DNA of 34,689 bases from an uncultured Desulfuromonadales bacterium (lineage in GTDB: Bacteria; Desulfobacterota; Desulfuromonadia; Geobacterales; CAIOGM01): assembly GCA_903929485.1 (NCBI GenBank), contig CAIYUY010000039.1, positions 1 to 34,689 on the forward strand. The letters are read 5' to 3'. The translations under genes were made by a program, and so were the position numbers. How positions within the stretch are numbered: position 1 is the stretch's first letter; every line of letters begins with the position of its first letter. The notes under the pieces were generated by a model, which saw nothing but the letters and a program-made list of their open reading frames with translations, made no database searches and had not been told where the DNA came from. Shown in pieces: positions 1 through 6,583 of the stretch.

Positions 1-139
1 CTGATTGCTACTAATCTGCGGCTGAAAACCGTTCATCCTTCGACAGGCTCAGGACGAACGGTTTTCAGCTCTGCAACTGGCCGATTTTCCGTTCATGGTG
101 AGCTTGTCGAACCATAAGCCGCAGATGAGTAGCAATCAG
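1..139. mobile_element. 139-bp inverted-repeat (MITE-like) element ending hsdR
   Basis: The two ends (1-23 and 117-139) are inverted copies of each other with one mismatch; the outer sequence is CTGATTGCTACT. Inside, 21-34 and 56-69 form a perfect 14-bp hairpin (arm GCTGAAAACCGTTC) around a motif of the type TTCGACAGGCTCAGGA, and 90-115 carries a related GTTCATGGTGAGCTTGTCGAA motif. Motifs of these two kinds recur as dispersed repeats in many environmental bacterial genomes. No ORF is present, so it would be non-autonomous. On the minus strand it joins hsdR directly and its first bases supply the TGA stop (136-138). The window starts exactly at its outer edge, so the far flank and any target duplication cannot be seen. 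Confidence 0.7.
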
Positions 140-2271
140 GTCAGGTTATGCCCCTGTGACGGCTTATCCATATACAGCGTATGCAAGCAAGGCGCGTCAA
201 AACCGGTCAGCCACATGTCCCGCACGATTACCAGCTTCAGTTCGTCACCACTATCTTTCATCCGTTCGGCCAAGGCTTTGCGCTGCTGCTTGGTGGTATG
301 ATGTTGAGCGAGTTTAGGACCATCGGACGAAGCGGCGGTCATCACCACCTTAATCGCCCCTTTGCTCAACTGGTCAGAATGCCATTCCGGCCTTAATGTA
401 ATCATTTCATCATACAGCTCCGCGGCAATGCGCCGGGACATGCTGACAATCATCGCCTTGCCGGCAAACACCTCTTGCCGTGCTTCAAAATGGCCGACCA
501 TATCCCGGGCGATGTTCTTGATCCGGTTTTCACTCCCCACCAGGGCTTCCATCTGGGTCCATTTGGCCTTGGCTTTTTGTGTCTCGGGTAGGGGTGAATA
601 ATCATTGGGCGAATAATCATTCGCCCCTACGTCATCTAAATCTTCATCCAACTCTGCGATCAGTTTTTTCCCCTCCTCGCTAAGGGCGACTTTTGCCAGC
701 CGACTTTCGTAATAAATTCGAACGGTTGCGCCGTCTTCCACTGCCTGGGCAATGTCGTAGACATCCACATAATTACCGAATACCGCCGGGGTGTTCACAT
801 CCGATTTTTCTATGGGTGTGCCGGTGAACCCCAGATAGGTGGCATTGGGGAGGGCATCGCGCAGGTACTTGGCAAAACCGTACACGACCTTTTTTCCAAT
901 CACCTCGCCGTCCGCATCCTTTTCATCGATGGTTTTGGCCTTGAAGCCGTACTGGGTCCGGTGCGCCTCATCCGCGATGACCACGATATTGCGCCGAAGC
1001 GATAACTCCTCATACACATTGCCGTCATCGGGTTGAAACTTCTGTATGGTGGTAAAGATCACCCCGCCCGAGGCAACTTTCAGCAGAGCTTTCAGCTGTT
1101 GCCGATCCTCCGCCTGTTTCGGTTCCTGTCGCAACAGTTGGGTGGCAGCCGCAAAGGTATCGAACAATTGATCGTCCAGGTCATTACGGTCGGTAATCAC
1201 CAGCACCGTCGGGTTATCCAAAACCAGCACGATTTTACCGGTATAAAAAACCATGGTGAGCGATTTGCCGCTCCCCTGGGTATGCCAGACCACCCCGGCT
1301 TTCTGGTCGCCCACAGGTTGCGTCCTCACACCGGGCACGCCGTAGCTTTCCGGCGTCTCGGCCGCGACCATCACATCGCCAACTGCGGCGGCACGCAAGG
1401 TCGAAGCCACCGCCGCATTCACGGCGTAATACTGATGATAAGCGGCAACCTTCTTCACCGTGCTAAGACTGATGACTCCTGTTTGCAGATCTTCTTTTTT
1501 GGTTTTCTCGAACACCACGAAATGACGGATCAGATCCAGCAGCGTCGCCTTGTTCAGCATGCCGTTGATCAAGGTTTCCAGTTGACTCACGAGATGGGAG
1601 GCTTCCGCCTTGCCGTCCGCCGATTTCCACGCCATAAACCGGCTTAATCCAGCCGACAGGGAACCGGCTTTGGCCTCCAATCCATCGGAAATTATCAGTA
1701 AAGCGTTATAGGTAAACAGGCAGGGTATGGCCTGCTTATAGGTTTCAATCTGTTGCCAGGCCGACTTGATAGTGGCATTTTCATCGGCGGCGTTCTTGAG
1801 TTCCATCACCACCAGCGGAATGCCGTTTACAAACAGAATCACGTCGGGGCGTTTTTTCTGATTGTTTTCGATCACGGTGAATTGATTCGCCACCACAAAA
1901 TCGTTGTTTTCCGGGTTGGCAAAATCAATCAGTCGGACCAGATCACCGCGATCACTCCCCTCCTGCTGGTAGCTCACCTTAACCCCTTCGGTCAACATAC
2001 GGTGAAACTTCTCGTTATTGGCGAGTAATTCCGGGGAATGGATCTGCTCGACTTCTTTAAGTGCGTCGTGTTGCGCCGCCAAGGGAATTAACGGGTTGAT
2101 ACGCCGTACCGCCATCCTCAAACGTTCGGCAAGCAGTACTTCTTCATAACGGCTTCGTTCGGGTCGCTCGCTGTCGGGGGCGATCTCCGGCGCATAGATG
2201 TAGGAGTAACCGAGCCGTTCAAACAGCTTTATGGCAAAGGCTTCAATGGCATTTTCAGTCAAGCGCTCCAT
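136..2271 (-). pseudogene. hsdR: Type I restriction enzyme subunit R, 3'-truncated
   Basis: HsdR is the ATP-dependent translocase and nuclease subunit of type I restriction systems. Counting from the chosen ATG (MERLTENAIEAF, preceded by AGGGAG), 711 residues remain, against roughly 1000 in intact family members. Visible are the nuclease residues (D143 after RP, then E157-L-K159), Walker A TQGSGKS (331-337), DEAH (434-437), the FTGTP motif near 482-486 and the motif V region WLTGFDAPCLHTLYMDKP. The protein then ends GHNLT, where the family continues into helicase motif VI (QAIARVNR). The missing part includes motif VI and the C-terminal assembly domain, so the product should be inactive. The stop comes from the inverted-repeat element at 1-139. 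Residues about 548-561 (VGANDYSPNDYSPL) are an in-frame palindromic repeat. Start codons further upstream would lie inside another copy of that repeat. Confidence 0.88.
588..630. repeat. REP-like palindrome inserted in frame in hsdR
   Basis: The ends GTAGGGGTGAAT and ATTCGCCCCTAC form an inverted repeat with one mismatch, and a GAATAATCATT core is partly duplicated between them. Read on the minus strand it is open and encodes VGANDYSPNDYSPL between DLDD and ETQKAKAKW of HsdR. Its arms match the palindromes at 2301, 2360, 2759, 3204 and 5247. Confidence 0.8.
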
Positions 2272-2300
2272 TATGATGGTTCTCCCTGCATTAGTCGTCT

Positions 2301-2328
2301 GTGGGGGCAAATAATTATTTGCCCCTAC
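2301..2328. repeat. REP-like palindrome upstream of hsdR
   Basis: A 28-bp palindrome with one mismatch between the arms (GTGGGGGCAAAT / ATTTGCCCCTAC). It lies about 30 bases upstream of the chosen hsdR start, where it could form a hairpin in the leader. Confidence 0.75.
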
Positions 2329-2359: not shown

Positions 2360-2387
2360 GTAGGGGCAAAAAATCTTTTGCCCCTAC
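2360..2387. repeat. REP-like palindrome between hsdR and RAYT
   Basis: Arms GTAGGGGCAAAA and TTTTGCCCCTAC around AATC. Same family as the copy at 2301, about 30 bp away, in the short gap between hsdR and the transposase. Confidence 0.75.
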
Positions 2388-2617
2388 AACAGCACTTTGT
2401 TGCCAATTTAAATATGGTAGGTATCTTCCCGCCATTTTTGTGGATTGCATTTAATGTATTCCGAGATTTTCAGATAACTTTCTTCATCGCGGATAATGTG
2501 TTCATGATAGTTGCGTTGCCAAACCTGATCAATATCCATTTGTTCGCGAAACCACTTGGTAACTCCTATTTTAAATCCCCGTACAATTGATCCAACCGTT
2601 TTAGATGTGCCATGCAA

Positions 2618-2752
2618 GATGCACTCGCAAATTCTCCCTCAAGATGTCATTGCGAGGAGCGAAGCGACGAAGCAATCTCAGTAGTTTTAGTATGTTAGCA
2701 ATAAACTAGATTGCTTCGCTTCGCTCGCAATGACAGAATTTGCGAGTGCATC
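2618..2752. mobile_element. 135-bp MITE-like element inside the RAYT gene
   Basis: Terminal inverted repeats of 18 bp (GATGCACTCGCAAATTCT at 2618-2635, its exact complement at 2735-2752) are flanked by direct repeats ATGCAA at 2612-2617 and 2753-2758, consistent with a 6-bp target duplication. The interior is a second, imperfect inverted repeat containing TCATTGCGAGGAGCGAAGC-type motifs, a widespread dispersed bacterial repeat. It encodes no protein, so it must have been moved in trans. Confidence 0.85.
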
Positions 2753-2758
2753 ATGCAA

Positions 2759-2782
2759 GGGCAAATAATTATTTGCCCCTAC
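2759..2782. repeat. REP-like palindrome read in frame inside RAYT
   Basis: GGGCAAATAATTATTTGCCC plus CTAC; the outer left arm is incomplete. On the minus strand it encodes VGANNYLP of the transposase, directly after HGIIEIRNT. The MITE inserted immediately next to it. Confidence 0.75.
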
Positions 2783-3109
2783 CGTGTTGCGTATTTCGAT
2801 AATGCCGTGAATATGGTTAGGCATTACCACGAAACCATCAAGATAGACCTGAGGAAAATGCTCCGGTATCTCGCTCCAGCATTTTTCCGCCATGATTCCG
2901 GCATCATTGAGCGCCATATCCCCGTCTTTGATTGTTCCGAATAATGGCAACCGTTCTTGTGTGCAAATGGTGACAAAATATAAACCGGCCTGCGAATAAT
3001 CGTAGCCTTTTAGACGAATGGATTTGCGATGATGAATGTCAGGATTGAATTTCATAAATTCATTTCACCATGTCAAGACAACGATATAAACGTAAAGGCA
3101 CCACAGCAT

Positions 3110-3231
3110 TGCATGCACGACCGTGTTTGCATGACCATATCAGGGGCACGACCGTAGGGGATGACCATATTCGCACGACCGTATCAGGGGCACGACCACG
3201 ACCGTAGGGGCAAATAATTATTTGCCCCTAC
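3110..3231. repeat. REP cluster with degenerate GCACGACCGTA repeats and a perfect palindrome
   Basis: Between the transposase start and the hsdS remnant, the motif CACGACCGTA/CATGACCATAT recurs in degenerate form from about 3116 to 3207, partly as GTATCAGGGGCACGACC. The block ends in a perfect 28-bp palindrome at 3204-3231 (arm GTAGGGGCAAATAA). No coding potential is seen in this gap. Confidence 0.7.
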
Positions 3232-3545: not shown

Positions 3546-5024
3546 TCACGCATCGCCCCCTCCTCGTTTTGCTTTCAGGAGGACGTAATAGGTGCCGCGC
3601 CCTTGCCCTTTGCGCTCAATCAACCCTTTTTCCATCAACGCACTCAAAAAGAGATGGGCTTTTGATTTACCTGAATCAAGCAAACCTTTCACATCTTTAC
3701 GACAAATCTCGCCATTGCTGAGGAGATAATTGAGAATTTGTATTTCTTCAGAGTTAAGACCCTGTAAATCGTCCGCAAATCGTCCGGGTTCGCGGCTAAT
3801 CGTCCGGTAATCATCCGATAATCGTCCGATAATAGGACGATTATCCGGTACAACCTCTACAGTATCGGGCTTTTTATCGATCATATCCACCGCCACCGGA
3901 CGATAAAACTCTACATCCACAAAATCCCCCTGTTCCCGAACCTGTGGCTCGATCAACCCATGGGCCGTGCAGGAATTTTTGATCCGCTGGATGCCGCTCC
4001 CCCACTGCTCAATAAAACCAAGTTCCTTGAAAACCCTGGCGACCACACGGTTACGGATTTCCGAGCGACCCTCTGTCAGCGATTCCGCGGTAAGAGTGCG
4101 GGGAAAACCACCGGGGGAGACGATGTTAACGATGTCATCGTACACGCCGACTTTGATATCTCGCCCCTGGTTGGTGTAATCACGGTGGATCACGGCGTTA
4201 ATCAATGCTTCCCGCAAGGCCGCCTCTGGAATTTCATACGTATCGGTCCGTTGCAACCCCTTGATTTCTCCACGCAGATTTATGTGATTTTTGATAAACG
4301 CTTCCGCCTGCTCCAGTTGACTGAACAGCTCCCCGCTGTACTCTTTGCGATCCAGAAACAGGCTCATGTCGGTCCCCTTGAAGCGGGCGCATTTGGTGAC
4401 AACATGCGGGTGCCGGCCAAGCAGAATCATGAGCCCCTGCGTGGGATAAAAAGTTCCCTGTTCCTCCTGGATGAGCTTGAGGTTCTTCAACTTTTCTTCG
4501 GTGAGCGGCTTTCCCTTGGCAGAAAACCGAGCGTTTAACGGCGACAAATCCAGAAGATCCAACGCCTGTTCCCGGCAGAGTTCTTCATCATAGCTCTGAT
4601 TTCGTTTCTGTCGCTCTAATTCAAGAATATGTTCAAAATCCGCCTTACGGTTACTGGCGCCGATACGCAAATAGGTGCCGTTGTTTTTACCTTCCGCCTT
4701 CAGATAATAGGGGAGCAGATTGCCGCGGAATACTTCAACCACCAGTAGCAGCTTCCCATTCAGGTTGGCGGTATAAATTTCCGGCAGTATGGCAGGATAG
4801 CAGCGGTCAAAGATAATCGATGTCAGCTGGTCTTGAAGGGAAAAAAGCGCATCCTCGTCCACTCCCATAAGTTCCCGGTCATCGTCCACCCCGATTATCA
4901 GTTTACCGCCACTGGTATTGGCAAAAGCCACAACGGTTTTAGCAATCTGCTCATGTCGGGGAAGCTGTGATTTCAGTTCCAGCGTTTTGTTCTCGCCTTG
5001 CCGTATCTGATCAAACAGGTTCAT
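3546..5024 (-). CDS. AlbA_2 (Schlafen-like) / HATPase_c_4 / winged-helix protein
   Basis: A 492-residue protein of the family often annotated as ATP-binding or transcriptional regulator, commonly found beside type I R-M genes and mobile DNA; its exact role is not known. The N-terminal AlbA_2 domain spans about residues 10-140 ([20 protein letters not shown], then [11 protein letters not shown], and [11 protein letters not shown]). A HATPase_c_4-like region follows ([38 protein letters not shown] at about 260-360), and the C-terminus is a winged-helix segment ([20 protein letters not shown]). The start overlaps the hsdM stop in an ATGA, so it is probably translationally coupled. The linker before the winged helix is encoded by an 11-bp-periodic repeat of AATCGTCCG. 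It appears intact while hsdS and hsdR around it are broken. Confidence 0.85.
3767..3848. repeat. 11-bp-spaced AATCGTCCG repeats in the AlbA-type gene
   Basis: AATCGTCCG or a one-base variant starts at 3767, 3778, 3798, 3809 and 3820, with an inverted relative (GGACGATTATCCGG) at 3834-3847. Spacings are 11, 20, 11 and 11, not multiples of three, so the repeat exists at DNA level and encodes varying linker residues. Confidence 0.65.
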
Positions 5025-6583
5025 GACAGATCCACTTTTGCCAGGTTTTCGGCTATGGCCATGTTCAAGGCCGACTCTTCCTGCAACTGTGCTTCAAACT
5101 CGGCTTTCAGCTCAGCGAATCGCTCCTTGAAATTAAAGTCATCGTCTTCATCGGGGAGACCGACATACCGCCCCGGAGTCAGCACATAATCCAGTTCCTT
5201 GACCCGTGAAATCGGCACTGAGGCGCAAAATCCGGGGATATCGACATACCGTAGGGGCAAATGATTATTTGCCCCTACGGTACGCCAATTATGGTAAGTA
5301 TCGGTAATCCGTTTAATGTCCTCATCGGATAGTTCACGGGTGCGACGGTTGATGAGATGTCCTAGATTGCGAGCATCCACAAACAGAATCTCGCCGCTGC
5401 GGTTTCTAAATTTGCCGTTGTTCCGGTCCCGACTCATGAACCATAACGCGGCCGGGATCTGCGTATTCAAAAACAGCTTGGCCGGCAGATTGACAATACA
5501 GTCGATCAGGTTGCCGTCTTCAATCAAGGCTCGGCGGATGTCACCCTCGCCGCTGCTTTTTGAGGTGAGCGCGCCTTTTGACAGCACCACACCGGCTTGT
5601 CCACTGGGGGCAAGATGATAGATAAAGTGTTGCAACCAGGCAAAGTTGGCGTTGCCTGTCGGCGGCACGCCATATTTCCAGCGGCCATCTTTACGTAATA
5701 ACTCGCCGTTCCAATCGCTGACGTTAAACGGCGGGTTCGCAATGATGTAGTCAGCCTTGAGATCCTTGTGGGCATCGTTCAAAAAGGAGCCTTCGTTGTT
5801 CCATTTGACCTGGGAACTGTCGATGCCCCGGATGGCCAGATTCATCTTCGCCAGCCGCCATGTTGTCTGGTTGCTTTCCTGACCGTAAATGGAAATGTCG
5901 TTAACGCGCCCCTGGTGCTCGGCAACGAACTTTTCCGATTGAACAAACATGCCGCCGGACCCGCAACAGGGGTCAAAGACCCTTCCCTGATATGGCTCAA
6001 GCATTTTCACCAACAGCTCGACGATGCTGCGTGGCGTGTAAAACTGCCCCCCCTGTTTCCCCTCCGCCAACGCGAATTCACCCAGGAAATACTCGAACAC
6101 ATGTCCAAGCACATCGGCGCTTCGGGCCTTGGCATCACCCAGAGCAATATTGGCCACCAGATCAATCAACCCTCCAAGACTCGTCGGATCAAGGTTTTGT
6201 CGGGCAAACACCTTGGGCAACACACCTTTCAGCGAGGGGTTCTCTTTCTCAATGGCGTCCATGGCCTCATCCACAAAGGTCCCGATATCAGGTTGCTTGG
6301 CGTGGGATTGCAAAAACGACCAGCGAGCCTCGGCAGGAACAAAGAATACGTTTTCTGCCTTGTATTCGTCCTTATCCTCCGGGTCCGCGCCTGCATATTC
6401 GCCGTCTCCAGCCTGCAATTTGGCAAAATGCTCCTGGAAGGAATCGGAAATATATTTCAGAAAGATCAAACCCTGCACAATATGCTTGTATTCGGCGGCG
6501 TCAATATTTTTACGTAGCTTGTCAGCGGCTTTCCAAAGCTGTTTTTCCAACGGTTCTTCGTTGACGACTTTTTCCTTTGCCAT
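5021..6583 (-). CDS. hsdM: Type I restriction-modification DNA methyltransferase subunit M
   Basis: HsdM is the adenine-N6 methyltransferase subunit (M2S core) of type I systems. The 520-residue protein has an N-terminal helical HsdM_N region ([19 protein letters not shown]), the SAM-binding motif DPCCGSGG (204-211) and the catalytic NPPF (283-286), which together identify an N6-adenine methylase. The start is an ATG with AAGGAA upstream. About residue 436, VGANNHLPL is encoded by a palindromic repeat inserted in frame between TYHNWR and YVDIPGFC, a position where relatives carry only a short, variable loop. The insertion keeps the frame and lies outside the catalytic motifs, so the enzyme could still fold, but its specificity subunit is reduced to a remnant. 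First gene of the minus-strand R-M operon. Confidence 0.92.
5247..5282. repeat. REP-like palindrome inserted in frame in hsdM
   Basis: An extended palindrome with 16-bp arms (TACCGTAGGGGCAAAT and its complement) around GATT. Read on the minus strand it encodes [12 protein letters not shown] of HsdM with no frameshift. It has the longest arms of the six family members in the window. Confidence 0.8.

Follow-up and report, generated by a model that had tools for sequence, protein, structure and literature searches.

What is the short hairpin that interrupts an otherwise recognizable transposase gene, how did it get there, and what did its arrival do to the gene? The question arises near one end of the window, the 34,689-bp stretch of DNA analyzed here, which corresponds to contig C39 in the draft genome of an uncultured Desulfuromonadales bacterium (5.36 Mb in 369 contigs). 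As set out below, the hairpin is very probably a MITE of a lineage-resident family that inserted recently, in one clean event and by means of a trans-acting transposase, into an otherwise open gene for a RAYT (REP-associated tyrosine transposase). A check of the sequence placed the element's boundaries (Table 1) exactly, to the base, where the original prediction had drawn them: its last 18 bases are the perfect reverse complement of its first 18, and ATGCAA adjoins it on either side. Folded as a single strand, the element forms a near-full-length hairpin (-69.5 kcal/mol). It is short (<500 bp), and inspection of its sequence and open reading frames revealed no transposase coding. No Rfam family matched the window.

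The two halves of the interrupted gene match separate pieces of the RAYT model NF047646. When the element and one ATGCAA are removed in silico, ...RNTVGANNYLPLH and GTSKTVGSIVRGF... fuse into a single 168-aa reading frame, free of stops and frameshifts, whose product matches the model over positions 6-133 (65 bits, E 6.7e-18), in agreement with the prediction of a RAYT gene split by a MITE. That score does not reach NCBI's curated NF047646 threshold of 80 bits, and against Pfam the joined protein scores 18.8 where 23 is required; it is therefore best described as a divergent RAYT. Its HIH motif occupies residues 81-83, and its Y153 lies within YIKCNP, in accord with the class-2 Y...NP signature of RAYT proteins (PMC6006769). 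The insertion site falls between the HUH motif and the catalytic tyrosine, in the length-variable loop of the family. RAYT matches are present in 139 of 396 sampled genomes of the phylum, and the nearest homologues (61% and 62% identical) are uninterrupted at this site, as are most others; homologues without the 135 bp speak against its being a native part of the gene. In the window, the N-terminal reading frame now continues into MITE sequence as far as a stop codon at 2687-2689, giving a product of 122 aa whose final 21 residues are encoded by the element. Because this product ends before the catalytic tyrosine, the window RAYT is presumed dead, and loss of its function is very likely.

Table 1. 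Positions of the element, the interrupted gene and the neighboring palindromes in the window.
Feature	Position	Strand	Evidence
MITE, non-coding hairpin, 135 bp	2618..2752	.	TIRs, fold, identical C33 copy, dozens more with the same boundaries
Left terminal inverted repeat (TIR) GATGCACTCGCAAATTCT	2618..2635	+	Sequence
Right terminal inverted repeat	2735..2752	-	Sequence
Target-site duplication ATGCAA, left copy	2612..2617	.	Sequence; family duplications
Target-site duplication ATGCAA, right copy	2753..2758	.	Sequence; family duplications
Left inner stem arm TGTCATTGCGAGGAGCGAAGCGACGAAGCAATCTC, stem class A	2645..2679	+	Read from sequence
Right inner stem arm, final base common to right TIR	2708..2735	-	Sequence
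Hairpin centre; minus strand with CTAACATACTAAAAC, which differs at two positions from the common centre motif YAACNNNNTGAWAT	2680..2707	.	
RAYT N-terminal part up to the insertion	2759..3055	-	NF047646 6-68; ORF
HUH motif (HIH) in RAYT N-terminal part	2807-2815	-	
RAYT C-terminal part; stop 2408-2410	2411..2617	-	NF047646 75-133
Catalytic Tyr, Y...NP signature	2456-2458	-	Signature as in PMC6006769
GTAG-type REP palindrome within RAYT frame (TVGANNYLPL); degenerate foot shared in part with the MITE target site	2755..2782	.	
REP palindrome GTGGGGGCAAATAATTATTTGCCCCTAC adjoining RAYT gene	2301..2328	.	
REP palindrome GTAGGGGCAAAAAATCTTTTGCCCCTAC adjoining RAYT gene	2360..2387	.	
REP palindrome GTAGGGGCAAATAATTATTTGCCCCTAC upstream of RAYT gene	3204..3231	.	

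A DNA search of the host genome showed that the element belongs to a dispersed family. One copy, on contig C33, is 100% identical to the window element over its length; further copies are 97, 96, 93% and less identical, nearly all sharing both end bases, and dozens at 82-97% identity have identical start and stop bases. A profile built from 13 copies picked out no fewer than 48 full-length members among the retrieved host loci, and a pattern for the end motif gave 99 matches in the host genome versus 3 for the reversed control. Exact 6-bp duplications flank 24 of the 45 copies with usable flanks, while one further copy has a 7-bp duplication and eight more match at 5 of 6 positions; when, as a control, the left flank of one copy was set against the right flank of another, 0.4% of pairs were exact and 5.9% matched at 5 of 6. 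The prospect, raised beforehand, that copies with the same ends might lack duplications was thus not borne out. The duplications begin with A in 23 of the 24 exact cases and end with T in 22, from which a target of roughly AAnnTT, rich in AT, can be derived; the ATGCAA of the window is one of the two with a final A, and the C33 copy has a different duplication of its own, AGATGT. The host family is a MITE family: its members are short, bear TIRs, have a near-constant duplication length, and are dispersed with the same ends.

On contigs C277, C332 and C161 the MITE is broken at or beside one stem arm by a sequence starting TAAATATTCG[GC]TTAACC, which in C277 and C332 runs on identically into a frame beginning MPQASSAL; the interrupting sequence is possibly another mobile element, with the hairpin as its landing site. 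At a locus on contig C325 (1667-1753), pieces of stem and centre from the MITE follow a full copy at a distance of roughly 30-120 bp, as if a partial second copy had been added beside the full one.

The element, its ends, the duplication, the copy family, the identity of the gene and the position of the break can each be read from the sequence, and they fit a simple course of events. A non-autonomous MITE of a family resident in the Geobacter-group lineage would have entered the open RAYT gene once, brought in by a trans-acting transposase, presumably of the DDE type, that recognizes the GATGCNCTCGCAAA ends. Staggered cuts by this enzyme, 6 bp and sometimes 7 bp apart at AT-rich sites of the approximate form AAnnTT, would have duplicated ATGCAA. 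Translation from the HUH half would then enter the MITE and end at 122 aa, short of the catalytic tyrosine.

The perfect duplication, the identical copy elsewhere and the lack of other damage in the gene suggest that the insertion was recent. The earlier claim of a recent insertion with a 6-bp duplication is well supported by the C33 identity, by the exact duplications across the family and by the intact flanking frame. A companion claim, that exact excision restores the gene, stands as a computation: joining the flanks in silico does yield an open RAYT, but neither an excised nor an empty allele of this locus was seen. The joined sequence represents the site before insertion and has no bearing on whether precise excision occurs. 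A natural empty site within the genus could not serve for comparison, the locus being absent from all three other genomes of the genus.

The alternative that survives best, although we consider it unlikely, is that the RAYT was already a pseudogene, or that the MITE is old and fixed, so that REP activity is unaffected by the break. The scores of the joined protein, below the curated cut-offs, are compatible with this, as is the presence of other open RAYT-like genes in the genome: there are three, on contigs C176, C310 and C221, 48-52% identical to the window RAYT. The distribution of the associated palindrome points the same way. The GTAGGGGCAAATAATTATTTGCCCCTAC type has five copies in 3 kb of the contig (starting at 2301, 2360, 2755, 3204 and 5251) and only five elsewhere in the genome, all variants with 2-3 mismatches; because it is nearly confined to the locus, there is little sign that the window RAYT spread the repeat through the genome. 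Against an old or inconsequential insertion, however, the remainder of the reading frame is intact and shows homology right up to its end, and a MITE identical to another copy and bounded by a perfect duplication looks recently inserted. The suggestion that one short element silenced the mobilizer of another repeat family accordingly has to be narrowed: the window gene is broken and its product has lost the catalytic tyrosine, but three RAYT-like genes remain open and the REP type is nearly local.

Palindromes of the GTAG type were also observed in coding frames. In the type I methyltransferase gene hsdM (5021-6583, minus strand), the palindrome at 5251-5278 lies in frame and encodes 10 residues; the closest solved relative, 3khk, has a different, shorter sequence at this position, so the palindrome looks like an in-frame REP insertion, as in the RAYT gene. 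VGA.. segments (VGAIHELPL, VGAKNFSPL, VGAGL) recur at the corresponding variable loop of many RAYT homologues; they would be encoded by GTAGGGGC-type palindromes, and RAYT genes may often bear an in-frame REP there.

The constant 6-bp duplications lead us to infer a DDE-type transposase acting in trans as the mover of the MITE. It is very improbable that the hairpin was instead moved by a RAYT or Y1 enzyme of the single-strand, HUH kind. The long imperfect hairpin and the several RAYT or Y1 genes in the genome might suggest such a mover; however, the element has no GTAG foot, and its family is typically bounded by exact 6-bp (rarely 7-bp) duplications, whereas IS200/IS605-type Y1 enzymes are not expected to leave target duplications.

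A transposase gene with matching GATGCACTCGC ends, which the original prediction proposed might exist elsewhere in the genome, was sought in the draft host genome and in relatives and was not found. There were no IS-length pairs among the 99 host matches to the end motif or among 73 matches to a shorter, 13-base version. Likewise, no autonomous partner with inverted ends up to 4 kb apart was present in 61 stretches of named genomes, 29 loci from the order and 74 viral-contig stretches. Clean inverted end pairs in these stretches span 69-182 bp; longer pairings required mismatches and had no matching duplication, except for one chance case in a cyanobacterium. A search for transposase ORFs beside unpaired ends returned only host genes or other stem types, and none of the DDE_Tnp_1 genes in five genomes (the transposase family searched) is flanked by such ends. 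Either there is no partner, or it fell into assembly gaps, or its ends have diverged. The matches on viral contigs, considered as possible elements, formed no element-like pairs and look like chance.

An assembly mis-join, in which a repeat present identically in two or more places of a short-read draft wrongly linked unrelated flanks, is least probable of all and can be rejected. The draft does comprise 369 contigs, the C33 copy does match the element exactly, and some MITE copies are located at contig ends; yet each of the identical copies retains its own exact duplication (ATGCAA and AGATGT), which a swap would have broken, and the window flanks join in frame as a single NF047646 protein.

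The preferred reading, a MITE insertion by a trans-acting transposase, can be set beside known systems. Chunjie, a MITE of Geobacter uraniireducens, is 235 bp long and has 37 further copies of 178-235 bp (PMC10969869). Going by its description, Chunjie shares with the present family the same broad lineage, dozens of copies, TIRs, flanking direct repeats and one copy within a functional gene region, and differs from the window element in length (235 versus 135 bp); G. uraniireducens was absent among the exact matches to GATGCNCTCGCAAATTCT. In Type II MITEs, kinship to the partner IS is limited to the TIRs (PMC10969869). The window element resembles these in being short and non-coding, with TIRs and a target duplication, and in presumably being moved in trans, but differs in that no partner IS was found and in that a short centre motif, besides the TIRs, is common across stem types. 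A RAYT (TnpA-REP) together with GTAG REP palindromes constitutes a REPtron (PMC3733652, PMC6006769). The window locus is REPtron-like in that its gene resembles the RAYT model, though with a score under the curated threshold, encodes the HUH and Y...NP motifs, and is flanked by GTAG-type palindromes; unlike a REPtron, its RAYT is interrupted by a MITE and its palindromes are almost local to the gene. Neither these ends nor a RAYT gene holding a MITE came up in the open-licence papers searched. As a kind, such an insertion is a known thing, and the break by itself is ordinary life for a transposon; this locus offers a clean record of one selfish element, a presumably trans-mobilized DDE-type MITE, breaking the gene of another, an HUH-type RAYT.

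Greater weight attaches to the wider family, in which the same ends and the same centre accompany changing stems. Across the order, 24 of 141 genomes, from 14 of 29 genera, contain the pattern GATGCNCTCGCAAANNNTC, and its reversed control had no matches. Among named carriers, Geobacter, Trichlorobacter and other Desulfuromonadales MAGs predominate; one Paludibacter MAG contains a clean 160-bp element with the duplication AAAAAT. Pairing of ends gave 84 distinct candidates (a few chance pairs included), 43 of them with exact 6-bp and 4 with exact 7-bp duplications, and duplications in other genera are mostly 6 and sometimes 7 bp. Element length, 135 bp in the window, ranges from 97 to 174 bp in related genomes. 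Between the same ends lie at least five stem types: CATTGCGAG...GAAGCAATC, which is that of the window, CTTCGACAAGCTCAG, CATCCCCGAAT, CCCTCCCCC, and an AT-rich type found in Trichlorobacter. A motif close to YAACNNNNTGAWAT occupies the centre of most elements, with a mean of 0.6-1.3 mismatches per stem class versus 3.1-3.8 in shuffled sequences; the corresponding p-values are only descriptive, since the motif was derived from the same sequences on which it was scored. One element, built on yet another stem (TTCCGGCG), lacks the centre motif. In other genera the CATTGCGAG-type stem is also found apart from these ends, around a different centre.

We tentatively propose a modular superfamily in Desulfuromonadia in which the GATGCNCTCGCAAA... 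ends and the centre close to YAACNNNNTGAWAT are kept while the stems are swapped for other palindromic repeats, so that the set of ends may serve as a vehicle spreading unrelated repeats. On the sequences compared, one transposon chassis with exchangeable stems would be the simplest reading; the hairpins may instead have arisen by parallel evolution rather than by stem exchange. If general, stem exchange within one transposon chassis would be a route by which several palindromic repeats spread, a proposition that is testable.

A further, hsdR-like frame (136-2310, minus strand) stops at 724 aa after ...KPSQGHNLT, near the start of the contig. Proteins of the hsdR type are usually longer, and the frame may be frameshifted or interrupted.
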